64,000 nucleotides of DNA from Opitutaceae bacterium (GTDB taxonomy: Bacteria > Verrucomicrobiota > Verrucomicrobiia > Opitutales > Opitutaceae): assembly GCA_028281165.1 (NCBI GenBank), contig JANQKI010000266.1, positions 1-64,000 of the forward strand. The letters run 5' to 3'. Of this stretch, positions 21,118 to 36,055 are shown one piece after another. Positions within the stretch are counted from its first letter, which is position 1. Each line of letters starts with the position of its first letter. The notes below the pieces were generated by a model, which searched no databases, was not told the origin of the DNA, and saw nothing but the letters and a program-made list of their open reading frames with translations. A program made the translations under genes and the position numbers.

Positions 21118-21813
21118 TTATTCTTTGAATAGGCCGTCTTCCATTCGCAAAGTGCGATCGCATTTCCGAGCTATGTCGGGATTATGCGTCACGATCAATA
21201 CGGCCTGTCCCTTTTCCTTTGCAAGGCGTGTTAAAGAATCGAATACCATTAGCGAATTTTTAACATCCAAGTTGCCGGTCGGCTCATCTGCTAGAAGAAT
21301 ACTCGGCTGATTCGCAAGGGCTCGCGCGATGGCGACCCTTTGCTGCTCGCCTCCTGAAAGCTGTGATGGCAAACGATGCAACTTATCGCCCAAACGAATA
21401 TCTTCCAAAAGAGACTGGGCTCGCGCTTGCATTTCTTGCAAAGAAAGCCGTCCCAACTTCCGCATTGGCAGCATGACATTTTCCATGGCCGAAAATTCCG
21501 GAAGCAGGAAGTGAAACTGAAAAACGAACCCGATATATTCGCAACGCAGCTCGGTGTGGACGCCATCTCGATTTAGAGGCACCTCTTGCTCGTTGATAAA
21601 GATCGAGCCCTGCTCTTGGCGATCAAGGAGTCCAAGCAGGTACAGCAAAGTAGATTTGCCGCAACCGGAAGGTCCGACGATAGCGCTAACCTCGCCTCGA
21701 TAGAGTTTGAGGTTTACCCCTTTCAGAACATGGACACGAGAAGCGCCCTCCCCCAGGTGCTTGTGAATGCCACGACATTCTAAAGCAATCGTTCTATCGG
21801 CAACTTCACTCAT
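21118..21813 (-). CDS. lolD: LolD-type lipoprotein-export ABC ATPase
   Basis: 231 residues. Walker A is GPSGCGKSTLL, the Q-loop lies near QFHFLLPEFSA, the signature is LSGGEQQRVAIARAL, Walker B is ILLADEPTGNLD, and the switch His is in VLIVTHN. The VFQFHFLLPEF region is typical of LolD and relatives in the MacB/FtsE class. With the neighbouring FtsX-type permease (four-base overlap) it should extract lipoproteins from the inner membrane for LolA. Another MacB-like export role cannot be fully excluded. Confidence 0.88.
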   Translation of the reverse strand: MSEVADRTIALECRGIHKHLGEGASRVHVLKGVNLKLYRGEVSAIVGPSGCGKSTLLYLLGLLDRQEQGSIFINEQEVPLNRDGVHTELRCEYIGFVFQFHFLLPEFSAMENVMLPMRKLGRLSLQEMQARAQSLLEDIRLGDKLHRLPSQLSGGEQQRVAIARALANQPSILLADEPTGNLDVKNSLMVFDSLTRLAKEKGQAVLIVTHNPDIARKCDRTLRMEDGLFKE

Positions 21814-23063
21814 GAGGCAGTCCCTCTGATAACATCACCAGGCACAAGACGAGCAGCACGCCGAGCTGGGGCAAGACTGGCGAAAAGGACAACTACAGTC
21901 GCTACCAGGGCAGCATATATATAGTGTAGCAAGGACCAGTTAACCACGAATCGCTCGGCCGTGAAAATTCCCCTCACGCCAATCGGAATGTTGGAGATCC
22001 CATAAGTCATAGCCGCTCCAAAGCTGAAGCCAATCATCGAGCCCAAAATGAGCACGATCATTCCCTGCCAGATGAAGATGTTGGAAATGTCTCTACGCGT
22101 GTAACCCATCGAACGAAGAATGGCTATCTCACGTGTCTTCTCCATGACGATCATAGCCAGCGTATTGAACATTCCAAGACCAGACGTGAGCAATATGGCT
22201 GAAACCGTTATGGCTGCCGAGAGTCCAATCACGTAAAAAAACTGCAGCCAGGATTTCTCCCTTTCCTGCCAAGAAGCGGCGAAGTGTCTTGTGAGGTTTT
22301 CGATAGCTTGCGCGTCGGAAGGCGCTTTCGATCTATCGAAAAGACTGACCTGAATAAAGCTTGCTCCATGCGGCCTCTTCAAAAGCGAGCGAGCCTGACC
22401 AATGTGCAGAAAAACCCGAACCTTATCAATCTCGGAAACACCCGTTTCGTAGATGCCTGTAACATGAAATCGACTACGTTGATCGACAGCCTGCACCAAC
22501 AGAGAATCGCCAACCCTCGCTTGCAGCCGAGCCGCCAGCTTGCTCCCGATCAAGATGCCCATTGGCGTAGATCGAAAATCGTCCACTGTCCCCTCGATGA
22601 TCTGATCCTCTAAAGCGGACACTGCCAAGTGGTCCTCCAGACTGATTCCGTAAACGAAACCTGAGCCATTGCGAAGAGGGCCGCGAATATAGACGTTGCC
22701 CGTCACGACTGGCGAAGCAGCATAAACATTGGGGAGTTCACGAATGGACTCGATGATTTTATTGGGAAACTCGACCCCCTCAATAAAACGATAGTTCTCC
22801 CGGTTTCCTACCATAAAGCTCGATTTGCCTCCTTCCGTAGTGGAAGCCTCGAGACTGGTCATGATAGGCTGCATTTTATCGCTAATGCGAATCGCCCCGT
22901 CGGTAGCCAGAACCGTATCGATGAAATATTCCTTGAAGCCGCTGACCTGAGCTTGAGTGACTATAAAGAAAGCCACCCCAAACGAGATCCCAGTCAGGCT
23001 CATCAGCATCGACCGCTTCTTGGCGAGCAGAAAACGAACGGCAATTGCAATGCTAGGCGTCAT
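21810..23063 (-). CDS. LolC/LolE-type lipoprotein-releasing permease
   Basis: 417 residues. There is one TM helix near the N-terminus (about 17-40), a large periplasmic MacB-PCD-like domain (about 45-270) and three TM helices of the FtsX domain at the C-terminus (about 285-410). The segment MVMEKTREIAILRSMGYTRR (MV at 305-306 region) is the conserved coupling helix that meets the ATPase. Only one permease gene is present, so it may work as a homodimer. It lies directly upstream of lolD with a four-base overlap. Confidence 0.87.
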   Translation of the reverse strand: MTPSIAIAVRFLLAKKRSMLMSLTGISFGVAFFIVTQAQVSGFKEYFIDTVLATDGAIRISDKMQPIMTSLEASTTEGGKSSFMVGNRENYRFIEGVEFPNKIIESIRELPNVYAASPVVTGNVYIRGPLRNGSGFVYGISLEDHLAVSALEDQIIEGTVDDFRSTPMGILIGSKLAARLQARVGDSLLVQAVDQRSRFHVTGIYETGVSEIDKVRVFLHIGQARSLLKRPHGASFIQVSLFDRSKAPSDAQAIENLTRHFAASWQEREKSWLQFFYVIGLSAAITVSAILLTSGLGMFNTLAMIVMEKTREIAILRSMGYTRRDISNIFIWQGMIVLILGSMIGFSFGAAMTYGISNIPIGVRGIFTAERFVVNWSLLHYIYAALVATVVVLFASLAPARRAARLVPGDVIRGTAS

Positions 23064-23135: not shown

Positions 23136-23558
23136 TCAATCAAATGGATTCACAATTTTCGTATTTCGAATTTCTCGACCATCTTGCAGATCTTCACTGA
23201 ACAAGATTGCGCATTTTCCTTTAATAGCGGCTGCTACGATCAAGGCGTCATAAAAACCGTATCCCGTTTCTAATTGCGCGGATAGAGCAAGTTGAAAGAT
23301 TTCATTATCGGAATGTATAGTACAGAGAGGTTGCAAGACGGCACGAAAATATGAAACAGCATCTTCAAGTCCCATGGGATTTTCAAATTTATGCCGAGCC
23401 ACGTTGAGGAATTCCTGGACAACCTGCCAACTGATTATTCCTCTGCGCCCTTCAATCGCATCCGAAATAAGAGTTTGAGCCCGCTCCATTTTCTCGGGAA
23501 CGCTCTTGTCGAATGAATAGACAAGGATATTCGTATCGAGAAAATAGTCAGCGCTCAT
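23136..23558 (-). CDS. PIN-domain ribonuclease toxin (VapC-like)
   Basis: 140 residues. The PIN fold is recognised from LDTNILVYSFDK (first acidic residue D8), QVVQEFLNVA (central Glu), and GYGFYDALIVAAA with SEDL (C-terminal acidic residues). Such proteins are Mg-dependent RNases that cleave tRNA or rRNA. The gene overlaps the C-terminus of the upstream antitoxin-like gene by 11 bases, the usual VapBC arrangement. The family is clear; the RNA target is not. Confidence 0.85.
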   Translation of the reverse strand: MSADYFLDTNILVYSFDKSVPEKMERAQTLISDAIEGRRGIISWQVVQEFLNVARHKFENPMGLEDAVSYFRAVLQPLCTIHSDNEIFQLALSAQLETGYGFYDALIVAAAIKGKCAILFSEDLQDGREIRNTKIVNPFD

Positions 23559-23769
23559 TCATTTCATCCCGAGTGAATCTTCTCCCAGAAGACACATTCT
23601 CTAGTCGTTTCATTACAGCGAAATAACTCTGTTTAGAGGTATCGTTCTGCACATAAGCAGAAATCCATTGCCTGAAGAGTCCATTCAAAGTCTTCCCCTC
23701 AGCAGCCGCTTTTTTCCTAGCAGCCTGAAGAAGACCTCCTTCAGTTGTAAAAGTGACGTTCTTTTTCAC
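23548..23769 (-). CDS. VapB-like antitoxin
   Basis: About 73 residues if it starts at the GTG at 23769 (VKKNVTFTTEGGLLQAARKK). An extended reading upstream would enter the gspF remnant and the promoter, so it is rejected. The N-terminal segment fits a short beta-strand plus helix DNA-binding motif (ribbon-helix-helix-like), and the C-terminal part would clamp the toxin. It overlaps vapC by 11 bases. A perfect-arm inverted repeat in its promoter fits autorepression. The start is uncertain: the nearest purine-rich sequence (AAAAGG) is only two bases from the GTG. Confidence 0.65.
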   Translation of the reverse strand: MKKNVTFTTEGGLLQAARKKAAAEGKTLNGLFRQWISAYVQNDTSKQSYFAVMKRLENVSSGRRFTRDEMNER

Positions 23770-23839: not shown

Positions 23840-23995
23840 TCAACCACCCGACAGCGAACTACTGAGCTGGAAGACAGCCGAGATGATGCCAAAGGCAATC
23901 AGACCCACAAACATGAAAACGAAGAGAAGGACCCCAGTAGATATGATGCCCATGAAAGCTTTGACGATTTTGTCGATAGATTCTGAATACTGCAC
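23840..23995 (-). pseudogene. gspF: 3' remnant of gspF (displaced copy)
   Basis: Read on the minus strand this encodes QYSESIDKIVKAFMGIISTG and onward to LSSSLSGG, then TGA (23842-23840). Those are exactly the last 50 residues of the intact gspF at 34796-36055. The nucleotides differ at 10 of 150 positions, all synonymous, and the stop differs (TGA here, TAG there). The match ends at 23992; a stop in the same frame lies at 24002-24004, so no upstream part remains. It lies just upstream of the vapBC promoter. It marks the left boundary of the AT-rich block, paired with the repeat at 34799-34948. Confidence 0.9.
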
Positions 23996-24231
23996 TACGA
24001 ATTATTTGATCTGCCATGTAAGGGATTCAATCTCACAATAATCGAGAGGGCTCTTTACTACAGAGAATGACTCATCTCCAAGTCTTCTCAATGGAAAACA
24101 GTCAAGAATCATTCTTGCAGTAAATATTCCAGCCTCTCTGGGCATCAAATTCTTTGGTGGGTAATAATGCTTCAAGTTAGGAAGTTACGAATTTGTGTTT
24201 TCAGCCAATCATTGACCAGATATACATAAAC

Positions 24232-24792
24232 TTACTTTGCGTCGAGTAGCATTTCCAGAACTTTTTCAACTTCTCGGTTAGAACAGTCCGCCACGACTAA
24301 TTTCCCACTCCTGTCGAAAATGTAATAGTCAGGATACCCATTTACCTTATAGGCTTTGATCGTCAACCCTCCTTCATCAACGGCTATTGGATAATCAATG
24401 GACCTAGTCTGTGCGATCTCCTCCATCCGCTCAGCACCCCGAGGATGGCAGACTCCAATCAATACGACATAATCCCTAAATTTTTCGAGGATATCCTTGT
24501 GACGCGGAATACTCGCTATGCAAGGGCCGCACCAAGTGGCCCAAAAATCAAGTACAACAATCTTTCCTTCAAGATCCTCAAGAGAAAGCGGTTCAGTATT
24601 TTGCCAATTTGAAAGCTCCAGCTCTGGGGGATCTTCGCTGTCCTGAATTGAGGTAAGTCTTGCACGAGATTGTTCATCTCCTTCAAAGGCAAAGGAAAAA
24701 TCTTCTGTACCCAAGGGTTGAGAGAAGAAAAAGTACAATAGCAAGGTGAGTGCAAAGCAGCATAGCAATATTGGCAACGTTGGATTCTTCAT
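24232..24792 (-). CDS. TlpA-like membrane-anchored thioredoxin
   Basis: 186 residues. An N-terminal signal anchor (PILLCCFALTLLLYFFF) is followed by a periplasmic thioredoxin domain with the redox motif WATWCGPC near residue 88 and a cis-proline segment (NGYPDYYIFD). TlpA/MauD-type proteins exchange disulfides or reduce them in the periplasm. It is the first gene inside the AT-rich block and reads away from the 8-cysteine protein and MauE-like gene located 2-3 kb to the right. A folding link to those genes is inference. Confidence 0.87.
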   Translation of the reverse strand: MKNPTLPILLCCFALTLLLYFFFSQPLGTEDFSFAFEGDEQSRARLTSIQDSEDPPELELSNWQNTEPLSLEDLEGKIVVLDFWATWCGPCIASIPRHKDILEKFRDYVVLIGVCHPRGAERMEEIAQTRSIDYPIAVDEGGLTIKAYKVNGYPDYYIFDRSGKLVVADCSNREVEKVLEMLLDAK

Positions 24793-25658
24793 TTAATTTT
24801 AGTGCATAAAATAAATGCATCCATCAATTAAAACATCCATAACTATTCTAAATTTTGGGGTTTTAATAAAAATAACGAGCATTAATTTAGATGAAATAAA
24901 GGAAGGCACATTCAATCCGGCAGTATCTTATTCCTGCTCTTGAAGAAACAAAATAGTCCATATTGTCGTATTGGTGGGCAGTTGCCCTTGATAATTCTAC
25001 GTTATGGATCGCCCTGCTTGTTTAGATGATGTGTCTGGTTCCTTCTAGAAAGATCATACCGCTCCCTATTAATCCTTACCAAAACGGAAGAAGCAAGCAG
25101 CACCTAGCTTCAACGAAATACTTCTTAGTAAGTAAATCTGAAATCTTAGCCTCAGATTCATTTGAAGCGCAAAGGACGGTCTAGCATAAACCAGTCTGTT
25201 GCAATGTAGGCTAATATCCTAAAGTCGATGAATATATTCAATTAGACACGCAATAACGCATGAAAGGAGCTCTCAAAACACTTATAAGTTCCGTCCTATG
25301 AAAATTTCCAAGAATGGGGTGACTCAAACTTATAAGTCTTAAATTGATATGATATAGGAAGTAACAAACCCACACATTTCTTTTAGGCATCTACACTTCA
25401 AGAAAAATTGCGAACAGATGATTTTAGTCTTTCCTATCTTAAAAAATAGAGTAAACAATAGGCTAATCTGCTGATAGTTAATCCACTCATTATAACCTAA
25501 ATCGCCATACCCATTTTTGAGGTTTTGGTTTTCTCTTACTCTTACAAATGAATCTTGCCTGCCGTGTGTCAAAATGTCGTGTGGTGCATACCTGGAAATG
25601 GCTGAATTGGAAGAATCCCTCGCGTAAGGCAAAGCTCCTTGAAAAAGAGAACGTCTTT
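24793..25658. other. AT-rich intergenic stretch without a supported gene
   Basis: About 870 bases between the divergent TlpA-like gene and the secreted protein gene. Reading all frames gave no protein I could support; a 97-codon minus-strand frame (25339-25632) has no recognisable features. The 10-bp palindrome ACTTATAAGT occurs at 25280-25289 and 25328-25337, both preceded by CTCAAA. The same 10-mer is the centre of the large palindrome at 34469-34516. Both divergent promoters must lie here, but none is clear. Confidence 0.5.
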
Positions 25659-26732
25659 ATGAGGAGCTACAGGTTTAAGGCTGCACTTCATTTTGTCGCC
25701 TTATTTGCCACACTTGAAATTACTGCTACGGCTCAAGTCGTAGAGTGGAGCGGGAATTACAGTGAACAAAGATTCTATGACAACGAACTGAAAAATAAAT
25801 CAAAGACGGGAACCTTCTCATTGAGCGCGTCAAATCTGAAATATGGTATTCGGCTATTTGAAAATGGTGACCGCCAGGATCGAGGTTTCATTGTAGTGTC
25901 AGATCCAGAGTCGATATACTCTTCCGTGACTTATGAAACCCATGAGACGGGGCAAAAGTTCGCGCTCGGCTCAATTCGGCCCGGCAGATTTATCAACATA
26001 AGGGGTTGGCACAAGGTGCAGCTAATCTCCCTGGCTTATTTACTGGTTACAGATTTGTCCTCTGTAACAAAGGCTGGCGAACTGCAAAGCACATACATAC
26101 CTGAGCTATTTACATGGCGGGCGGACTTCGAGAAATGGCAACTTCGATCTGAGCTTTTAAAAACACCAGATGGCGCTTTCGATAAGCTGAATCTCTGGGG
26201 TATCAGACCAGAGAAAACCGTAACGAAATTAGAAAATAGCAAGGATTGCTTCTTGTTAGGAACTCTTACCGTTGAACTTTCGAGACGTGGAATGCCCGAG
26301 CAAATTACGGCAAAAGTATATACCAAAAGGCCTGAAGTTTCAGGTAAGATGAGGTCTCAATTGAACCGGTTATACGTCTTTAACGGAGAGATAAGAGACG
26401 CGGATTCAACGGAGGCTTTTAAAGCAATAGCCTATGACAGAAATCTGAGAGTTAGAGTCAAGAACTTCATGCCAAAGGGAGAAGCTCCGGATCATTCCTT
26501 AGGTTTTACATTAGAGCCAACGGATCCAATACCCTTTCTTACAGAGCATCCTGAAAAAATAGCGGAAACTATAAAACTTCACGAGGAGCGAAGGGCTCTG
26601 GCGAATTCGATTTCCAAGAGGAAGCGAATGGTAATGCTATCAATTCTTGTACTTCCCATCGCATTTGCTGCCACTATATGGTATCGAAACAAGCATAATA
26701 CAAATAACGTGAATAGTACTAATGAAAACTAA
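25659..26732 (+). CDS. Secreted single-TM protein of unknown function
   Basis: 357 residues from the ATG at 25659, where a signal peptide begins (YRFKAALHFVALFATLEITA, cleavage near TAQV). An upstream start would add 37 residues without hydrophobic character. The body is beta-rich and has no family I recognise. A C-terminal TM helix (about 325-345, MLSILVLPIAFAATIWY) leaves a short Asn-rich tail inside. It therefore sits mostly in the periplasm, anchored at the C-terminus. The stop overlaps the next start by 11 bases, so it is coupled to the 8-cysteine protein. Confidence 0.75.
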   Translation: MRSYRFKAALHFVALFATLEITATAQVVEWSGNYSEQRFYDNELKNKSKTGTFSLSASNLKYGIRLFENGDRQDRGFIVVSDPESIYSSVTYETHETGQKFALGSIRPGRFINIRGWHKVQLISLAYLLVTDLSSVTKAGELQSTYIPELFTWRADFEKWQLRSELLKTPDGAFDKLNLWGIRPEKTVTKLENSKDCFLLGTLTVELSRRGMPEQITAKVYTKRPEVSGKMRSQLNRLYVFNGEIRDADSTEAFKAIAYDRNLRVRVKNFMPKGEAPDHSLGFTLEPTDPIPFLTEHPEKIAETIKLHEERRALANSISKRKRMVMLSILVLPIAFAATIWYRNKHNTNNVNSTNEN

Positions 26733-27048
26733 AAAGAAGAATATAAAGCTGATTGCCTCGGCAATCATCATTTCCTTCTTGCCAGTCAGTGTCACATACG
26801 CCTGGGAAGCTTGGGGAGTGATAGACTACTGGGTAGGAGATCCTTGGGTCTCATACGCCTATTGCGGAGGGTATGGAGAGTGCGACGGATGGTGCGTCTT
26901 GAATGTAGAAGTCACGGAAGTCTGCGATTGGACTTGGGATTGGGATTGTGAGGGCCTAGGGACCTACATAGAAAGTGATACTAGTGATTGCGAAAGGGTA
27001 AGCGAAACCAGGTGTGAATGCAATAACGAAATAACATTGCCATTTTGA
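26722..27048 (+). CDS. Small exported protein with eight cysteines
   Basis: 108 residues. A signal peptide (KLIASAIIISFLPVSVTYA) is followed by about 80 residues rich in Trp, Tyr, Asp and Cys. All eight cysteines lie in the mature part: AYCGG, GECDG, WCVLN, EVCDW, DCEGL, SDCER, RCEC and CNN. An even number of Cys in a small secreted domain suggests four disulfides. No family is recognised. It overlaps the upstream membrane-anchored gene and is followed by a hairpin and then the MauE-like gene. A role as substrate of a MauE/TlpA oxidation route is inference. Confidence 0.78.
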   Translation: MKTKKKNIKLIASAIIISFLPVSVTYAWEAWGVIDYWVGDPWVSYAYCGGYGECDGWCVLNVEVTEVCDWTWDWDCEGLGTYIESDTSDCERVSETRCECNNEITLPF

Positions 27049-27097
27049 CAATATCTGGATGTATTTTACGGTATCCTTGGGCAAGTAGCCCATTAAT

Positions 27098-27127
27098 AAT
27101 GGAGCACTAATCCCTTAGTGCTCCATT
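27098..27127 (+). terminator. Hairpin between the 8-cysteine gene and the MauE-like gene
   Basis: A perfect 13-bp stem (AATGGAGCACTAA / TTAGTGCTCCATT) with a four-base TCCC loop lies 50 bases after the stop of the 8-cysteine gene. There is no U-tract after it, so it could be a partial terminator or an mRNA-stabilising hairpin that uncouples the small protein from the downstream genes. Confidence 0.6.
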
Positions 27128-27274
27128 GCCATGCCGATTAGCATCCACAAGCAGAAAACGACGTCCATCTCTGTTGGACGATTTATAAGACTTATCCACC
27201 AGGTAGATATTCAATGCTATGGATTCCCATTCAAAAATGGGATATATATTTGGAAAGTTCGCTATTCCTAAATT

Positions 27275-27754
27275 ATGAGTTTACAGAGAATTTTTATATT
27301 GTCTGCCAGTCTTGTACTGATGTTAACTGCTTTGGCAAAATTAATCACGGCTTGGAGTGGAGACGAGAAATTAATGACCTCGGTCGATCCCGTGTTTGGA
27401 ATGTCGTTCAAGTTCATCTTCCTAGCGGTTGGAGGTATCGAAATAGCCGTAGCGGTGTTTTGCGTATTCGGAAAAAAGATGCTATTCGAACAAGCAACAG
27501 TGCTTTGTTGGCTAGCTCTGAGCATGGTGCTTTATCGTGTTGGGCTGTACGTAACTGGATACAATAAGCCGTGTGGTTGTATCGGAGACGTAACAGAAGC
27601 ATTAGGCATCAGTGAGGCGATCGCTGATAAGGGCCTGAAATTTATTCTCGCGTATCTAGTAATCGGGAGCAGCTATTTGCTAATTGCCAACTGGAATAGG
27701 AAGAATCAGTCAAATCGCAATATCGATAGTAGAATTCAAGAATCCATCGGCTAG
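27275..27754 (+). CDS. MauE/DoxX-like membrane protein with a CGC motif
   Basis: 159 residues with four hydrophobic segments (about 6-27, 46-67, 73-93 and 125-147). The loop after the third helix carries YNKPCGCIGDVTEALGISEA, a vicinal CxC pair typical of MauE-like proteins in this kind of bacterium. MauE supports disulfide formation in methylamine dehydrogenase maturation, partnered with the thioredoxin-like MauD. No mau substrate genes are here; the nearest exported Cys-rich protein lies immediately upstream. The start has only weak ribosome-binding features. Confidence 0.75.
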   Translation: MSLQRIFILSASLVLMLTALAKLITAWSGDEKLMTSVDPVFGMSFKFIFLAVGGIEIAVAVFCVFGKKMLFEQATVLCWLALSMVLYRVGLYVTGYNKPCGCIGDVTEALGISEAIADKGLKFILAYLVIGSSYLLIANWNRKNQSNRNIDSRIQESIG

Positions 27755-27814
27755 TGCACACAAATTGCTGCATTTATTCATCGACTAATCAGGAAAGAAA
27801 TTATAGATCAGTCT

Positions 27815-29224
27815 TTGTATATTTTTAAAGATAAGCGAGAATGGCTTACGAAAATTGCTAAGCTTTCGATACCTAATATTTTACTAGCGGTTTGTTTTTT
27901 CGGCACGACTAGACCTGTACTGCACTCTGAGTCGTTTATAGGTTCTGCATTATTCGAGTCTTCGCTTTTCATAAGGTCCTCCCAGGATCTCTTATTTTTG
28001 TTCGCATTCCTGTGTTATCTGTCCTGCCTTTTCATTCAAATCACTCTTTTCCACTTAACTAAGTTTGGCTGGTACAGAGAACTGGGACTTTTTATTTTCA
28101 TTTGTAGCGGAGCTATATCGTACCTGACAGATTATAAGCAAGCATCGACTTCGCTATACGCATTATCAGTAATAGCAGCGATTGTAATCGCCAAGTGTAT
28201 TGGACTATGGATCGCAAATAGCATAAGTTCACTAAGGTCCTTATTATATGGAATCCTAATTATGCTTGCTTTATCTTCTCTTTGGAGCGGCGAAGCATCT
28301 GCCATTTTCAAATATCGCGAAACGGCTCGTTTTAATGGACTTTGGCCTACACCTAATATTTTTGGCATGATGATGTCAGGTGGATTAACCATTGGTGTAG
28401 GCCTACTGTTAACCGGAATTAAAGAGTTTCCTCTTATCAATAAGAAGGCGAAACTTACAGATAGATGTTGTCTAAAGCATTTTAGATTTTACTTTTTAAT
28501 TATCGCACTAACACTATTGAGCAGAGGTCTGTTGATAAGCTACAGTAGAGGAGCATGGATTACATCCGCATTAGCTATTGGTCTACTTTTATCGAAGGTG
28601 GATTGGGAAAATTTCGATTGGGCTCAAAAAGTTTATAGTTTGGCGATTAGGCATATTACAGTAATCTGGATTTCACTATTTTCAATATTTACGATTTCGT
28701 ATTGGCTTTTTAGATATACTGATAAAGGTCTGGTTCGAAGAGTTTTTTCTATCTTTAATAGTCGAGACCAATCATGGACAAACCGGATTGACGCCTGGGA
28801 AGGAGCGACCCGAATGTTATTAGATCGACCTGTTTGGGGATATGGCTGGAACAATGTACGCGAAGCATACAGTTCTTATTATCGTCCTACCTGGCTCATA
28901 GACGGCGGAGCAATTGTCACCAACGATCTTGCTTACTTTGGCGCAACATTAGGCGGACCTGCTATACTAGGCTATATTATTTACATTTTTTATTCTACTC
29001 GAACTAGTCAGACTTTATTATGCAGATTTTCTTCTGAAACGTACCTCAATACTGAAAAAACAAATTGCTCAAATAGAGAAAGCTGGCTGCGAACGGTATC
29101 GAAGATTGGTGGGGCAAGTTTGTTCTTCGGATCAATCTTCAATGGAGTAATATCAACATTCAACTTGGGCTTGTTTCTCTTCTTGCTTTTGGAATTAGGA
29201 ATGACTCAGAAAAAGAAACTTTGA
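27815..29224 (+). CDS. O-antigen ligase/polymerase-like membrane protein
   Basis: 469 residues with about 11 hydrophobic segments. A periplasmic loop has the O-antigen ligase (Wzy_C) signature: TNRIDAWEGATRMLLDRPVW followed by GYGWNNVREAY. LISYSRGAWITSALAIGLLL is another family block. Such proteins join or polymerise lipid-linked glycans outside the cell. The only in-frame start near a purine-rich region is a TTG at 27815, so the exact start is uncertain. It overlaps the next gene as TTGA. It could instead be a protein glycosylase of the PglL type; sequence does not decide. Confidence 0.78.
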   Translation: MYIFKDKREWLTKIAKLSIPNILLAVCFFGTTRPVLHSESFIGSALFESSLFIRSSQDLLFLFAFLCYLSCLFIQITLFHLTKFGWYRELGLFIFICSGAISYLTDYKQASTSLYALSVIAAIVIAKCIGLWIANSISSLRSLLYGILIMLALSSLWSGEASAIFKYRETARFNGLWPTPNIFGMMMSGGLTIGVGLLLTGIKEFPLINKKAKLTDRCCLKHFRFYFLIIALTLLSRGLLISYSRGAWITSALAIGLLLSKVDWENFDWAQKVYSLAIRHITVIWISLFSIFTISYWLFRYTDKGLVRRVFSIFNSRDQSWTNRIDAWEGATRMLLDRPVWGYGWNNVREAYSSYYRPTWLIDGGAIVTNDLAYFGATLGGPAILGYIIYIFYSTRTSQTLLCRFSSETYLNTEKTNCSNRESWLRTVSKIGGASLFFGSIFNGVISTFNLGLFLFLLLELGMTQKKKL

Positions 29225-30711
29225 GCGAACTAGAAACGCAGGCGAACAGTACAAGGCATTTTGTAAATTTGTCTTTGCTTGGAATTTTAATTACGACATG
29301 GAGTTTGTGGTCATATTCTCGCAGCGAAGTAAAAATAATGCCTCTTAATCTGAATGGATTACGAGATCTAGAAGTGTCGCTCGTGGCCAGGAAGCATCTG
29401 GATTTTTCTCCTCCCGTAATCCTCTTTGTAGATTCCAATGGAATTCCCTCTCGAGCATCAAACCCGATGCGCAGTTTTTCTGAATTCGGCTTTGCGACAG
29501 TAAATATGCATGTTCGTTTTGAACAAAAGGAACGCATTGAGGAATGGCTCAACGAATTACATATTGCACTCAGCGAATATGCTTGGATCGATCTTAAAAA
29601 ATCAGTGTGGATAATTCCGCCAACACTTCTCGATAATGTTTTTAAAGCTTTAAAGAAGAGCGCTATTCAAGACCCAAAATTGCTGATAGTAATGAAATCT
29701 AGCAAATCATCTATTTCTCCTGATAATTTTACACTGGGCGCGAACAGATTTTATGGTTCAACTGAGCTACTATTTGTAGGCAACGAGAAAGAAGCGTCTG
29801 AAGCTGCAACAGTTCTTGGCGAGGTCTTTGATGAGGTGAATCTATTGAATGTGGAGGGGTTTTCAAACAGCGTATTAGAACAAAGTACATTATTTAGAGG
29901 TATCGCAGAGTATGCCGCCAATAAGTTAGAAACAACCGGATTTTACTCCTTAAATATGATTTCATCAAATTGGCATTTTTGGCTGCCTTTCTCTGCTCTG
30001 GCAGGAATATTGATTTTTCTTCGATCTAGCATTTTTATAAAAAGAAATGAATCGAGCAATATTCGAACGATTAGCTTTATAGCTATTTTCTTAGTTCTAG
30101 CTTTGGGAAATATTTGGTTATTTTGCGCCCCTAGTTCTAAATGGACGAGATCACTAGCTGCCCGCTATTTTATAAATCCATCCCAAGTTGACGCATTTAC
30201 ACTGTTGGCGACAGAAGCCCAACAAAATCAGGCTTCAGTTAAAGAGATCGTAGAGACACTTGAGCTTGCCTATGGGAACCGTACTAGGTTTTATACTTCA
30301 CTGAATGAAGATGATTTCAAAAACTATATGCTATCATCGAAAATTGGAGATAAGGTTTATCCGAACTGGTGGTATTCTACATTATGGAAAAGGTGCCACT
30401 CTTATATCCAAAGAGAAAATAATTCCCTTATCGCTGCTAAAATACTGGTTAATTTTTTGAGAGAAAGACTAACGATAACGCAATACGCAGACGAACTGGG
30501 AGATAGAATGTCGGTGTGGTATTCCGGTAAAATTCGTAAAAGCGATTTTAATATTCTGTATATTGCGACTCTCCGATCGATTGGTATTGCTGCTCGAATC
30601 AGAGAATCAGGATATCCCGAACTCCTACATAAAGGGGATTGGATTAAAGCGCCTGATCCTCTCTTTCCCGAAATTGAAGACAGAATAATACCGCTAGTAT
30701 CTAGGATTTAG
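29221..30711 (+). CDS. Membrane protein with a degenerate transglutaminase-like tail
   Basis: 496 residues. There is an N-terminal TM (about 13-30), a periplasmic domain (about 60-235) with a weak hydrolase-like look, and two TM helices (about 250-270 and 283-305). A C-terminal domain ends KSDFNILYIATLRSIGIAAR, resembling the transglutaminase core (CxxFxxLxxALLRxxGIPAR) with Ser where Cys is expected. The start is TTG at 29221, overlapping the previous stop (TTGA). It probably works with the O-antigen-ligase-like protein at the cell surface. The family call is tentative and the substrate unknown. Confidence 0.65.
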   Translation: MSELETQANSTRHFVNLSLLGILITTWSLWSYSRSEVKIMPLNLNGLRDLEVSLVARKHLDFSPPVILFVDSNGIPSRASNPMRSFSEFGFATVNMHVRFEQKERIEEWLNELHIALSEYAWIDLKKSVWIIPPTLLDNVFKALKKSAIQDPKLLIVMKSSKSSISPDNFTLGANRFYGSTELLFVGNEKEASEAATVLGEVFDEVNLLNVEGFSNSVLEQSTLFRGIAEYAANKLETTGFYSLNMISSNWHFWLPFSALAGILIFLRSSIFIKRNESSNIRTISFIAIFLVLALGNIWLFCAPSSKWTRSLAARYFINPSQVDAFTLLATEAQQNQASVKEIVETLELAYGNRTRFYTSLNEDDFKNYMLSSKIGDKVYPNWWYSTLWKRCHSYIQRENNSLIAAKILVNFLRERLTITQYADELGDRMSVWYSGKIRKSDFNILYIATLRSIGIAARIRESGYPELLHKGDWIKAPDPLFPEIEDRIIPLVSRI

Positions 30712-30954
30712 ACTTATCGATTTGAGGTCTGAATCTAATAAATATGCCATAATTAAAGCCGATAGAATTTCTCATTGTTTATATTTCAAAAACCGCACTC
30801 GTACAACATTCTTTTCTAATTCTCATTTTCCGAGCGGGAACTTAGCGATATATTTAATTAGAATCGAATATTCTTCAATGTCCAATATCGCAGTACCCAT
30901 CGATTATTTCCCGTAACTAAAATGAATATTTTGAGATCAAAAAAACTTGCTCTG

Positions 30955-33900
30955 TCAGCGTTTAGTCAACGTCTCCAAATCAAGCTCCCAAGATCTGTTA
31001 AACAAACCACGGATGGAAGTTATTTCTCGACCGTTCCTTGCCTTGGATACCACATAATCAAATTTATCAAATCTCATGGGTGTAAACAAATAAGAATTCG
31101 GCGAGTTTCCCAACTCAAGAAAGATATAGCCGTCATCATAAAGCGGCGACGGGTACAGCACTTGCAGTAAAGCATCTCCTGATCCATCAAGCTCCTCCCG
31201 AAATACGCTAAGGCCTGCCAAATTATCAATCAATGAGACAATCTTATCCATAGACTTTGACAATTTCGGTTTGCCCACAAACCATAGACTACTATTTTCA
31301 ACATCAACAGGCTCAAGTTCTGAATCCGCTTTAACAATAAACCTTGCCCCATTAATTTGGCCGACTTCAAGACCGGACAAAGCTTCCTTTATCATAAAGG
31401 CACGGTTCTTATAGATGGGAATAAGCAATGGATCAAGCGTTCCGTATACGATCACGAAATTTCCATTCGCAAAGTCGTCCATTGGACCTGGACGATTCCT
31501 CGTCTTAACGAGCCGATTTTCAATTTCCGAATTGGATTTAATCCATCTGTCTGTCGAGCCTCGTTCAAATGACATCCATCCATTATTATCAGAGTCAGAA
31601 TCAGATTCTTGCAAAATCGTTCCATCGATCAGGACGTTCCGGATGTTTTCCATCTTTTCACCCAAAATAGACAATCCTCTTAGGTTTTCGGTTACGACGG
31701 TCAATTGGCTATTGTCTTGACTAACTGAAATCCCCATTGCCTTTAACTGGTCAATCGGGTCATCGAGCCTAAATCCATACGCTTCGTTATATCTAAGGTC
31801 ACCACTTCGATATGTAAAACTGCTATCCTTAGAACTATCAATGCTTCCGCCAGACCAAGGAAATGCCGGCAGTCCCATGTGACCGCCACCCGGTACTATA
31901 ATCATCTCAACTTGCTGGCCAATCGAAACCAATTCTTTCTCAATCTGCTTCATAAAGGCCAATGGACCAGGATCGGCTCCTCCGACTACCAACATCAAAG
32001 GGTGCTTTCTGGTATTCCAAATCAGGGCTTTATAATCATCCCTAGCATCGCGCAAGGCTTCCTCCCAAGGTGACAAACCACCATAAATACGCCAACCGGA
32101 AGTGAAATCGTTGAACATACTTCTTAAATAAAGCCTTGATGAAAGATCCGGATGCCTCATCGCAGACAACCAAGCCTGGCTAGCACCCGTTGAACCTCCA
32201 TAGAAAGTCGTATTTAAAAAATCGATGTCGAGATTTTCCGCGAGCCAATAGAGCGTTTTTCTCAATTCCTCTTCACCACGCTTTTTAAAGCTATTACCTC
32301 TACCAAAGAGCTTAATGGCGAGGTCATTTTTGAATGAATTTCGTTCCCATACCACAAATTCCCTCAGTTTTAAATATTCATTCAATGCTTTATCCAAAGA
32401 ATGCTTTTTCTGCTGCAAACCATGATAGAACAATGTCAAGGGATATCGGCGATCACGTTTAAAATTATCAGGAAAGATGATTCTCATTTGCCGCCACGAA
32501 CCATCTATATCGCTTTTCCAAGCTTGGAGTGGATGATTCTCAAAGCCATCCAACGCAATACCACTCGAAAAGAGTTCTTCTATGTATGTAATAGTATTAG
32601 AAATCAAGTTCTCCGTTAATTGGTTGTTGTTGTAGTGATGAAGCTGGTAAAAATGTTTGAATTTTTCGCTTTCTCTACGCACCTCAAATTCACAACTCTC
32701 GATACAAGCTTGCTCAACCATCGCTAAAAAGGACAAGAAATTCTTGTCATTTGATTTTCCATAGAAAGGGGCGAACGTTTGCCGTATTTCCTGCTTCGCC
32801 TTAGCGATCTCCAACTCTAAAGTTTTTGTTCGCTTCCAGGATTTTTCAATTTTATCATACAATGTCACGCTAACAGAAAGGGGCTGGTCACAATCGTAGC
32901 CATTTGGCACTCTAATATGATCGTAGTAGTAGTAGTATTTTCCTCCGACACTTTCTACTAATTCGCAACGCCTGTCTACAATATCTAAGCCGTCTATATT
33001 TATCACTATGTACGGATTATCCACTTCCAAAAAATTGACGGCATATCGAATCGAGATCCATGAGGAATCGGACAAAGAATCTTCGTAAATCTCCAAATCG
33101 CCTGGAAAATAAGCGAGGCGATCCGTCAAAACGCATAGCGGAAGCCTCCCCTGATTATATGAGAGCCAATCTACAGACGTTCCACTACCGTGCCTGACAA
33201 GCCCTAGAGAGCGCCCTTGAACATTATCGCGTAGTTTATACCCGAATCTAATAGTATCCCTGTAAGAAAAGCTTTTCATCTCGAATGCTTCTGGTGGAAT
33301 CATTCCCTCTACGACCCATCCGCCAACCTTCTCGATTGCTGCTAATTGGATACTACGAGGTTTGCTCTCATTTTTACTCATTCCATACACGCTTATAGAA
33401 TCAGTTCTTCCCTCGACCAAGCCAGCTACATTTACTCGTGCATGAAAGATGCCTTGAAGCATATCCTTTGATGTTCGAATCAACAATTCGTGCTTTCCAG
33501 GATCAAGATCGTTAGTTTCAAAAAAAATTGCGCCTTTTTTATCGAAAGGACTATAACAGTCGATTGTTCTCACAACGCTTCCATCCAAAACAACATCAAT
33601 AATCCCCGACAACCTTTGAAACTCACCAACCACCCTGACATTGTCTCCTTCAAACTCGTATCGTATCATAGGCTCATTTGGTGTACCGACAAATCTTGCT
33701 CCCTTACATACGGATAAATTTCGCTCAGTAACCCAGCCCTTTCCGACAAATTCGATTCGCGAGTCCGAATTATCTACTCTTACGATTCGACTATCAGGAA
33801 AACTGTGTTCAATAAAATCGATGTTGAGAATTTTCTCCGACTCGGGCGCTTTGGATACCATCGCAGTTCCATAAATTTCGATAGAATCGCCAGACAAACA

Positions 33901-34224
33901 TTCCCTGCTACTGGAAGAATGCGGATTTACCAGTGAACGGTCAAAAATATCGAAACAAAAATAGAGCCCCTCAGGTCTCCATCCAATCTTGTAGATTCCA
34001 CTATAATATTCCTCATAAAAGGAATTAGATCCTAATGCTTTGTAGTTTCGCTCTCTCCATTCCCCCAAATCTCCATCAATCTTGGGTTTAAACTCTAATC
34101 TCTCAATCAAATCTGGGCTAGAACACAATTGAATAGAGTTTTCGGCACTACTTGAAGCGCCAGAACTCAGAAAAAACGCAATCAATAAAAATCCAACTTC
34201 AGCGATATATGATTTTTTCCTCAT
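30955..34224 (-). CDS. Large secreted protein with a CBM9-like domain and an esterase-like domain
   Basis: 1,089 residues from the ATG at 34224, where a signal peptide starts (MRKKSYIAEVGFLLIAFFLS). An upstream start would be 12 residues longer with no signal logic. The N-terminal 180 residues (KIDGDLGEWRERNYKALG, GWRPEGLYFCFDIFD) match CBM9-like/DOMON sugar-binding domains. The centre (about 600-800) is an alpha/beta hydrolase: PLTLFYHGLQQ oxyanion region, nucleophile S in YGGSTGASQAW (near 680), acid in VVGGADPG, and His in VPGGGHMGLPAF. This suggests an extracellular esterase acting on a polysaccharide. It is the only minus-strand gene in the right half of the block. Confidence 0.82.
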   Translation of the reverse strand: MRKKSYIAEVGFLLIAFFLSSGASSSAENSIQLCSSPDLIERLEFKPKIDGDLGEWRERNYKALGSNSFYEEYYSGIYKIGWRPEGLYFCFDIFDRSLVNPHSSSSRECLSGDSIEIYGTAMVSKAPESEKILNIDFIEHSFPDSRIVRVDNSDSRIEFVGKGWVTERNLSVCKGARFVGTPNEPMIRYEFEGDNVRVVGEFQRLSGIIDVVLDGSVVRTIDCYSPFDKKGAIFFETNDLDPGKHELLIRTSKDMLQGIFHARVNVAGLVEGRTDSISVYGMSKNESKPRSIQLAAIEKVGGWVVEGMIPPEAFEMKSFSYRDTIRFGYKLRDNVQGRSLGLVRHGSGTSVDWLSYNQGRLPLCVLTDRLAYFPGDLEIYEDSLSDSSWISIRYAVNFLEVDNPYIVINIDGLDIVDRRCELVESVGGKYYYYYDHIRVPNGYDCDQPLSVSVTLYDKIEKSWKRTKTLELEIAKAKQEIRQTFAPFYGKSNDKNFLSFLAMVEQACIESCEFEVRRESEKFKHFYQLHHYNNNQLTENLISNTITYIEELFSSGIALDGFENHPLQAWKSDIDGSWRQMRIIFPDNFKRDRRYPLTLFYHGLQQKKHSLDKALNEYLKLREFVVWERNSFKNDLAIKLFGRGNSFKKRGEEELRKTLYWLAENLDIDFLNTTFYGGSTGASQAWLSAMRHPDLSSRLYLRSMFNDFTSGWRIYGGLSPWEEALRDARDDYKALIWNTRKHPLMLVVGGADPGPLAFMKQIEKELVSIGQQVEMIIVPGGGHMGLPAFPWSGGSIDSSKDSSFTYRSGDLRYNEAYGFRLDDPIDQLKAMGISVSQDNSQLTVVTENLRGLSILGEKMENIRNVLIDGTILQESDSDSDNNGWMSFERGSTDRWIKSNSEIENRLVKTRNRPGPMDDFANGNFVIVYGTLDPLLIPIYKNRAFMIKEALSGLEVGQINGARFIVKADSELEPVDVENSSLWFVGKPKLSKSMDKIVSLIDNLAGLSVFREELDGSGDALLQVLYPSPLYDDGYIFLELGNSPNSYLFTPMRFDKFDYVVSKARNGREITSIRGLFNRSWELDLETLTKR

Positions 34225-34795
34225 AATTTTATATAAAACACCCCAATAGTTGGAGATCAACGTTGACTAGACAGCTTCACACTTATTCGTACCCAATGAA
34301 CCCAAACCACCTTTTACATACTTTAATTTACACTAGTATTTTCAAGAGAAACAGTAATTGGTACAAGAGTATTCGACTCCAAAATACCAAGTTAAATAGA
34401 TTCAAAATGAGGATAAAGAGCAATTTTAACCTTCAGCCCTTGCCTCAAATCTAATTACTATTGTCCTTTGCTATTTCTATTTTTCGGACTTATAAGTCCG
34501 AAAAATAGAAATAGCAGCTCACCTTCCTAGGAATGATCTTTTTGCCAATTAGCGTTGAATCAAACATGCCATAAAGACCTACGCAGCTTCGATAGCGATT
34601 CTCTAGAAAAGGACCGTAAATTGATATATCACCTTGATATCCACACGACAAACGAAACACCACTAAGCCATGCCCTAAAGGTTTACACCAGTTTGGTAAA
34701 AAGACTCAAAATATTCTTATCGGATAAGCTATATGCCGGTACCTTGAAAAATTCCATGGAGACTTGTTGTCTAAATATAGTACAAAATAAAATCT
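34225..34795. other. Gene-free stretch at the right end of the accessory block
   Basis: About 570 AT-rich bases between the secreted esterase gene and gspF. Small plus-strand frames (34263-34454 and 34555-34821) have no start context or recognisable protein features, and the latter runs into gspF. The notable content is the perfect palindrome at 34469-34516. Promoters for the minus-strand esterase gene must lie near 34225-34300, but none is obvious. Confidence 0.5.
34469..34516. repeat. Perfect 48-bp palindrome
   Basis: The left half, TGCTATTTCTATTTTTCGG then ACTTA (34469-34492), is the exact reverse complement of 34493-34516, with no spacer. The centre is ACTTATAAGT, which also occurs at 25280 and 25328. 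A perfect palindrome this long would form a cruciform or a very stable RNA hairpin. It lies about 280 bases from the right boundary repeat of the AT-rich block. A strong bidirectional terminator is possible, but the neighbouring genes are both minus-strand and a terminal or resolution site of an element is equally possible. Confidence 0.9.
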
Positions 34796-36055
34796 CTACC
34801 CACCCGACAGCGAGCTACTGAGTTGGAAGACGGCGGAGATGATGCCGAAGGCGATCAGGCCCACAAACATGAAAACGAAGAGAAGGACTCCAGTAGATAT
34901 GATGCCCATGAAAGCTTTAACGATTTTGTCGATAGATTCTGAATACTGACGAGCCATTTGTTGAAGCCCCGGCACCACGTTTCCCGTGTTCTCCCCTACC
35001 GTGAAGATATCCAAAGACATTTCGTCGAAGTAGCCAGTCGACTTAAAGGCTGCTGAAAGTGTCGCTCCTTCAACTACCTTGCTTCGAGCTTCAGTGAAGC
35101 GTTCTCGCATGTAATAGTTAGTCAATGCTCGCTCGGTCATGGCAAGCGACTGAACCATGGTAATCCCGTTTTCCAAAAGCAGTCCCAAAATCTGAGTGAG
35201 CCTCATTACCTGAAGGTCTCGCAGGAATTTCCCGATAAAGGGCACTTTCAAAATGAGGGCATCGAATTTCAGGCGGCCATTAACGGAGTTCCTCCATGAA
35301 ATGGTTCCAAAGACAGCCAAAGCTCCTCCTATGGCTACAATCCAACCGTAATTCAAAAGAACATCCGCCATGAAAATGAGCAGCTTGGTCGAAGCCGGCA
35401 ACTTTCCCCCAAGCGAACTAAGCAAACCTTGGATACGCGGGAGCAGCAAAAAAAGGAACAGCAATACCAGACCAATCGTAATCAAGATAAGAAAAACGGG
35501 ATACGCCAAAGCGGAGAAAAGATTCGACTGGATGCGCTTCCGTTCTTCCATGCTTGAAACGATGCTGGTTAGAACGGTATTCAAACTTCCAGTAGCCTCT
35601 CCCGCTTCAACCAAGCTAACAACGCTCTCGTCAAACACTTTTGGCTGCTTGCGAAACGTTTCGGATAAAGATCGGCCCTGTCTTAATTCATCCCAGAGCT
35701 GAGTTGACAAAAACTTTAGTCTAGGATCGCTGAGTCTCCCGCTCATCAAGCGCAGCGCATCACCAGCTTGGATGCCGCAATTAAGCAACTCTTTGAGATT
35801 TTGCAAGAAAGGAAGCGCCAAGCTGCGACGCATGGAGGAGGACGACACTTCGGAAGATCTCTTGCTAAAAAGACCGGAGAAAGGAATATTACTCTTCGAT
35901 GCCGTAGAGGCGTCCTTCCCCGATTCGGAGATACTCAATGGTCTCAACTTCTGCGCAGCCAGCTGCTGCAAAGCGGTCTTCCGCGTTGCCGCTTCCAAGG
36001 ATCCATGGACCTTTCCGCCTTGGATATTCTTAGCGCTGTAGGTGAAAGTAGGCAC
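34796..36055 (-). CDS. gspF: Type II secretion inner-membrane platform protein GspF
   Basis: 419 residues. It starts MPTFTYSAKNIQGGKVHGSL, the usual GspF/PilC N-terminus, and has two GspF domains (about 85-210 and 290-410), each with paired hydrophobic segments. SLVEAGEATGSLNTVL and FTVGENTGNVVPGLQQMA are the duplicated EAGExxG-like motifs. It is the inner-membrane platform that couples the GspE ATPase to pseudopilus growth. It is last in the gsp operon. The final 50 codons are duplicated at 23843-23992, see the repeat entries. Confidence 0.95.
   Translation of the reverse strand: MPTFTYSAKNIQGGKVHGSLEAATRKTALQQLAAQKLRPLSISESGKDASTASKSNIPFSGLFSKRSSEVSSSSMRRSLALPFLQNLKELLNCGIQAGDALRLMSGRLSDPRLKFLSTQLWDELRQGRSLSETFRKQPKVFDESVVSLVEAGEATGSLNTVLTSIVSSMEERKRIQSNLFSALAYPVFLILITIGLVLLFLFLLLPRIQGLLSSLGGKLPASTKLLIFMADVLLNYGWIVAIGGALAVFGTISWRNSVNGRLKFDALILKVPFIGKFLRDLQVMRLTQILGLLLENGITMVQSLAMTERALTNYYMRERFTEARSKVVEGATLSAAFKSTGYFDEMSLDIFTVGENTGNVVPGLQQMARQYSESIDKIVKAFMGIISTGVLLFVFMFVGLIAFGIISAVFQLSSSLSGG
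34799..34948 (-). repeat. Right copy of the gspF 3'-end direct repeat
   Basis: The last 50 sense codons of gspF are repeated in the same orientation at 23843-23992, 10.96 kb away. There are 10 mismatches in 150 bases; none changes an amino acid. The longest perfect runs are 29 bases (for example 34920-34948 with 23964-23992). The two copies bound an AT-rich block of about 10.8 kb. This is what remains when an incoming segment brings its own homologous gene end and displaces the resident one. Confidence 0.9.

Follow-up and report, generated by a model that had tools for sequence, protein, structure and literature searches.

A horizontally inserted block separates an intact gspF gene from a displaced second copy of its 3′ end in the window, by which we mean the whole 64,000-nucleotide stretch of an Opitutaceae genome analyzed here. 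The insertion is real, as is the replacement of the gene end that came with it; outcomes of this type are known in other bacteria, and the missing recombinase is unusual. We consider it probable that the block is a cargo cluster acquired horizontally and joined on arrival to the 3′ part of gspF from a related donor, with recombination anchored in gspF on one side only. The window would then be the readable scar of a gene cluster that entered a conserved operon and left the gene unbroken, with no integration enzyme, and the synonymous divergence between the two ends would tell how distant the donor was.

Two copies of the gspF 3′ end and the junction in relatives

The intact gspF (34796–36055, minus strand) is an open reading frame of 419 aa with a TAG stop, sits in a gspD-E-F operon, and shares 91% amino acid identity with gspF of a genome of the same genus, G001. 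Its functional 3′ end with the stop codon is repeat copy B (34796–34948, minus strand), which holds the last 150 coding bases. Copy A (23840–23992, minus strand) is a stranded 50-codon gspF 3′ end with its own stop that lacks the gene body and lies in an open frame of 53 aa only. Direct comparison of the coding stretches, 23843–23992 and 34799–34948, confirmed the repeat described in the initial annotation: 140 of 150 bases are shared, the 50 residues encoded on the minus strand are the same in both copies (QYSESIDK...SSSLSGG), all 10 differences are synonymous, and the stops are TGA in copy A (23840–23842) and TAG in copy B (34796–34798). In blastn the copies match over 149 nt with 94% identity (E 7e-60). 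The longest run without a difference is 29 nt, and the opening 29 bp of the repeat match throughout. This is the sole direct repeat of at least 40 nt in the whole window, and no similarity was found past the repeat edges on either side. On the reading favored here, a foreign end joined at codon 370 of gspF would have restored the protein end of the intact gene identically.

The pattern of divergence between the ends indicates how they arose. With 10 synonymous and no replacement differences, dN between copies is 0 and dS is 0.34, whereas for this stretch the functional copy and G001 have a dS of 1.07. When changes were polarized with G001, five fell to the remnant as derived changes and three to the functional copy, all of them synonymous. 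If the remnant had been functionless since the split, five synonymous changes out of five would be expected with a probability of about 0.001, which argues that the remnant was still the end of a working gene while it diverged and was stranded only afterwards. Judged from these substitutions, both ends gained most of their differences within working genes of separate lineages, as the initial annotation had proposed in invoking selection in separate genomes, and the remnant has not drifted for long since its stranding. The suggestion that comparison with relatives would identify the matching copy gave no clear answer: over 153 bases the same-genus gspF has 26 differences from one copy and 24 from the other, so neither is closer and relatives cannot tell which end is resident.

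Behind the remnant lie, on the minus strand, a vapB-like antitoxin gene with a GTG start (23548–23769), a VapC-type PIN toxin gene (23136–23558; Pfam PIN 4e-9), and a lolE-like ABC permease gene (21810–23063; 91% identity and synteny in G001). The antitoxin, read from the sequence as a 73-aa open reading frame directly behind the remnant, has no Pfam match; it lies upstream of the toxin gene and overlaps it, which is the arrangement of a VapBC pair, a PIN toxin behind a short overlapping antitoxin gene. In G001 the flanks are collinear with those of the window (gspF, 64 bp, lolE, lolD), with one gspF end and neither the block nor vapBC at the junction. We compared synteny in the closest relatives, G001, G009 and G019, and in genomes with the best-matching GspF ends, among which 19 (G001 and 18 of the closest other genomes) have gspF followed by lolE and a single gspF end; vapBC next to gspF is absent from every relative examined. 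Because this adjacency is kept in relatives that have neither block nor vapBC, lolE is the ancestral neighbor of gspF, and the lineage of the window has gained both block and vapBC. The empty site predicted by the initial annotation therefore exists as a gspF-lolE junction with one gspF end and no block, although without vapBC, and its view of vapBC as an old neighbor of gspF fails, the pair being itself a recent addition. Its core proposal that a segment of roughly 10.8 kb entered the gspF 3′ end holds; the block may have come before or after vapBC.

The gap between gspF and lolE is mostly about 83–170 bp among the relatives. It holds a histidine-kinase gene in G019 and G561, with a gap of similar size in G563, and a methyltransferase-like gene in G268 and G567, with gaps of similar size in G354 and G572; in G566 it measures 395 bp. 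In one related genus the gene in the gap is a large histidine-kinase hybrid (L036 11206–15105 and L100 1539–5507), which indicates that the gap takes up genes repeatedly. To judge from these sequences, it is permissive for insertions.

Cargo of the block

The inserted block (23993–34795; 10,803 bp) begins directly after the gspF stop and is absent from relatives. Its G+C content of 40.2%, against 49.6% and 48.6% in the two flanks, bears out the earlier impression that it is AT-richer; vapBC has 41.4%. The block DNA is present once in the genome, a 5.1-Mb draft of 325 contigs, and a repeated element was ruled out on that ground.

Next to the remnant the block encodes a TlpA/ResA-like thioredoxin, secreted or anchored (24232–24792, minus strand; Pfam AhpC-TSA 1e-18, ResA 1e-17). 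Five genes on the plus strand follow. The first (25548–26732, with its true start probably near 25659) encodes an exported protein with a C-terminal membrane segment that matched no Pfam family and represents an undescribed family, which we call p394. It is followed by genes for a 108-aa exported protein with 8 cysteines (26722–27048, an open reading frame), a MauE-like membrane protein (27275–27754; Pfam MauE 7e-7), a membrane protein of the O-antigen ligase (Wzy_C) family (27815–29224; Pfam Wzy_C 1e-10), and a 496-aa membrane protein, p496, whose end is weakly transglutaminase-like (29221–30711; Pfam 0.001, below the cut-off). A predicted structure of p496 was discarded (pLDDT 37). On the minus strand, towards gspF, lies the gene for a 1101-aa exported protein (30955–34260).

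The five plus-strand genes occur in identical order in G494, which belongs to another Opitutaceae genus (L116 1566–8292, G494 C46), with two extra genes between those for MauE and Wzy_C. Identity is 24–38% for the proteins with BLAST matches (38% for MauE; E 1e-21 for p496), and the Cys-rich protein was equated with its counterpart by position and character only. This conserved order argues that the cargo of the block is a coherent unit. The p394 family was found in three genomes only, and in two of them it is near gspF: in G214, of another genus, gspF is followed after about 22 bp, on the same strand, by the p394 homologue (L117 2992–5310, G214 C1), so such cargo can occupy that site.

In methylamine-dehydrogenase maturation, MauE and the thioredoxin-like MauD serve a disulfide-rich subunit. 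By analogy, the cluster may make and process a disulfide-rich exported protein. Comparison of the loci has in any case brought out a little-known Opitutaceae cluster that combines MauE, a Cys-rich exported protein and an O-antigen-ligase family protein, with a thioredoxin also present in the window copy.

A G001 protein encoded on a different contig is homologous to the 1101-aa protein (26% identity, E 1.8e-86); it carries a CBM9-like domain (CBM9_1) and adjoins a Wzy_C protein, away from gspF. The cassette there (L051 6408–14429, G001 C43) encodes a Wzy_C-alpha/beta fusion and CBM9-like proteins of 303 and 1120 aa, behind which come a PIN toxin gene and a protein that resembles, by eye, REP-associated tyrosine transposases. 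As a further case of end duplication this related cassette was ruled out, since it has no flanking direct repeats.

Between the gene for the 1101-aa protein and gspF, 280 bp behind the gspF stop, lies a perfect 48-bp palindrome (34469–34516) that is centered on ACTTATAAGT and occurs once in the genome; it is not a typical terminator, as no T run stands behind it. The central motif itself is found three times in the non-coding DNA of the block, towards its edges (25280, 25328 and 34488), and 9 times in the 5.1-Mb genome. In a shuffle control for a role as att site, 4 of 300 shuffles gave some palindromic 10-mer three times. From its sequence and placement, the motif is possibly a binding site for a regulator or a recombinase.

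A second gspF-end duplication

When the 50-aa GspF end was searched against 252 Opitutaceae genomes, a short-frame remnant appeared, among the matches listed, in the window genome only. We then read the gspF 3′ flanks at 138 other loci, 108 of them at least 5 kb long, and a second gspF end was present only in the sister genomes G579 and G580, which represent one event (L134 452–1261 in G579 C21; L135 387–1196 in G580 C10). Here a second copy of the final 60 bp of gspF, stop included, stands 750 bp downstream and is 97% identical. The repeat starts 19 codons from the gspF end, compared with 50 in the window, that is, 31 codons later. Between the two ends lie an antitoxin-like open reading frame and a PIN toxin gene (Pfam PIN 1.7e-13) that is intact in G580 but has a broken reading frame in G579. 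A third sister genome, G576, is without the insert.

The two events are alike in the gene affected and in the outcome, in the lack of a recombinase, in an insert that stands directly behind the gspF stop, and in a PIN toxin at the site. They differ in scale, G579 and G580 having a 60-bp repeat and a 690-bp insert, and in the place of the toxin cassette, which in G579 and G580, unlike the window, is enclosed by the two ends and points the opposite way. In addition, the remnant in G579 and G580 has one replacement change, whereas that of the window has none.

Among the 139 gspF flanks examined by motif and similarity search, no PIN toxin was found beyond those of the window and of G579/G580. That end duplication and a PIN cassette coincide in both events is suggestive, and with two events no firm claim can be made. 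Since no PIN toxin was found in the 139 flanks except at the two known independent gspF-end duplications, one could imagine that the gspF 3′ end in Opitutaceae is a docking site for recombinase-free cassettes that carry a copy of the gspF end, integrate by homology and are often linked to PIN toxin-antitoxin genes, a generalization that we hold to be rather improbable. If the link were true, copies of gene ends would serve as the address label of a class of cassettes, one that would escape standard island finders, since these search for integrases and tRNA genes.

Routes of integration

Neither the open reading frames of the block nor its intergenic frames encode a recombinase, in agreement with the initial annotation, which had noticed no integrase, and the block contains no relaxase or phage gene. 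No transposase was found among its open reading frames and no terminal inverted repeats at its edges; a transposon or insertion sequence is thereby ruled out, a 150-bp coding repeat being no target duplication. A tRNA or structured RNA as target was ruled out as well, none having been found. Relatives of three block proteins were absent from viral contigs, and those of two tested block proteins from plasmids and phages, so that a virus, plasmid or phage origin finds no support from the proteins tested. The genome has three tyrosine recombinases, all on other contigs, two of them XerC/XerD-like and one non-Xer-like; serine resolvases gave no match in the genome.

Under recombination anchored in gspF, the donor would have carried the cluster directly behind its gspF stop codon, and it would have been a relative whose divergence in the gspF-end stretch is roughly a third of that seen with the same-genus genome. 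The incoming DNA would have paired with the resident gspF through homology. At the other edge an illegitimate joint could then have formed 150 bp ahead of the resident stop, as in homology-facilitated illegitimate recombination; alternatively, a circle carrying the gspF end could have integrated by a single crossover. Either way the resident gspF would gain the donor end and stay intact, and its old end would become a pseudogene fragment beside vapBC. The edges show gspF sequence in common on one side and nothing similar beyond the repeat on the other, and the donor genome was not found.

Both variants have parallels. In the T6SS arrays of Vibrio, 3′ ends of effector genes that have been shifted back are attributed to homology-facilitated illegitimate recombination (PMC5361080). 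The immunity-gene arrays of Vibrio cholerae resemble the window in having a homology anchor on one side, an old 3′ end and downstream gene pushed behind the module, and no integrase; there, however, the target is a polymorphic effector and the cargo an effector-immunity module, as opposed to a housekeeping secretion gene with an identical protein end and about 10.8 kb of cargo. In E. coli conjugation, single crossovers of circles duplicate gene ends (PMC3240628); these integrants and one-sided recombinants likewise have a gene end duplicated around an insert by a single crossover, although they involve a laboratory plasmid and a circle whose origin is known. Illegitimate joints usually show 3–10 bp of shared sequence together with a deletion (PMC3240628). 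At the joint in the window the resident end and the downstream genes are kept, and because this is a duplication instead of a deletion we do not file the case as a certain member of homology-facilitated illegitimate recombination. Two observations count against one-sided recombination or are not explained by it. The block abuts the gspF stop exactly, as gene ends borne by elements also do, and the differences between the copies are clustered, with 2 in the first 29 codons and 8 of 10 in the last 21 (P 0.018).

The exact abutment recalls site-specific integration, in which an element with a tyrosine recombinase would have entered the gspF 3′ end and brought a replacement end in the manner of e14 and phage 21 at icd, its integrase having since been lost or having acted in trans. 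The two alleles at icd::e14 differ by 12 SNPs, 10 of them synonymous, and site-specific recombination takes place at 11-bp direct repeats (PMC4759930). The window has the same geometry: a conserved gene with foreign DNA at its 3′ end, a new end supplied, the displaced resident end at the far edge, and mostly synonymous divergence. A core could lie in the identical first 29 bp of the repeat, the non-Xer-like tyrosine recombinase elsewhere in the genome could act in trans, and the three ACTTATAAGT copies towards the block edges could be binding sites. However, icd::e14 is a prophage that is excised at its short repeats, whereas the window has a 150-bp repeat, non-phage cargo, and no recombinase, relaxase or phage gene in the block, and neither the viral contigs nor the plasmids and phages held relatives of the block proteins compared with them. 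Moreover, a remnant at codon 370 was found in only 1 of the 252 Opitutaceae genomes, among the matches listed, and the G579/G580 duplication, starting 31 codons later, shares no core with it. Since the two repeats start at different points and no other remnant was found at codon 370, the site-specific route is less likely than one anchored by homology, and we regard it as unlikely.

Reversing the order of events would yield the same final structure. A resident gspF-block-lolE arrangement would have received, between block and lolE, a segment consisting of a foreign gspF end and vapBC and anchored in lolE. That vapBC is as A+T-rich as the block fits this order, as does the PIN cassette of the G579/G580 duplication, which raises the possibility that such cassettes travel with a gspF end. 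Yet the block would need a separate event to reach the gspF-lolE gap, and in G579 and G580 the cassette lies between the two ends and not behind the second, so we consider this order decidedly improbable.

That the gspF end was simply duplicated within this genome and then drifted, or that the draft assembly with its 325 contigs is chimeric here, is extremely improbable, since a stranded copy should gather replacement changes and the remnant, which has derived changes of its own, shows none among 10 differences, the longest common run is 29 nt with nothing shared beyond the repeat, and the G579/G580 case is present in two separate assemblies.
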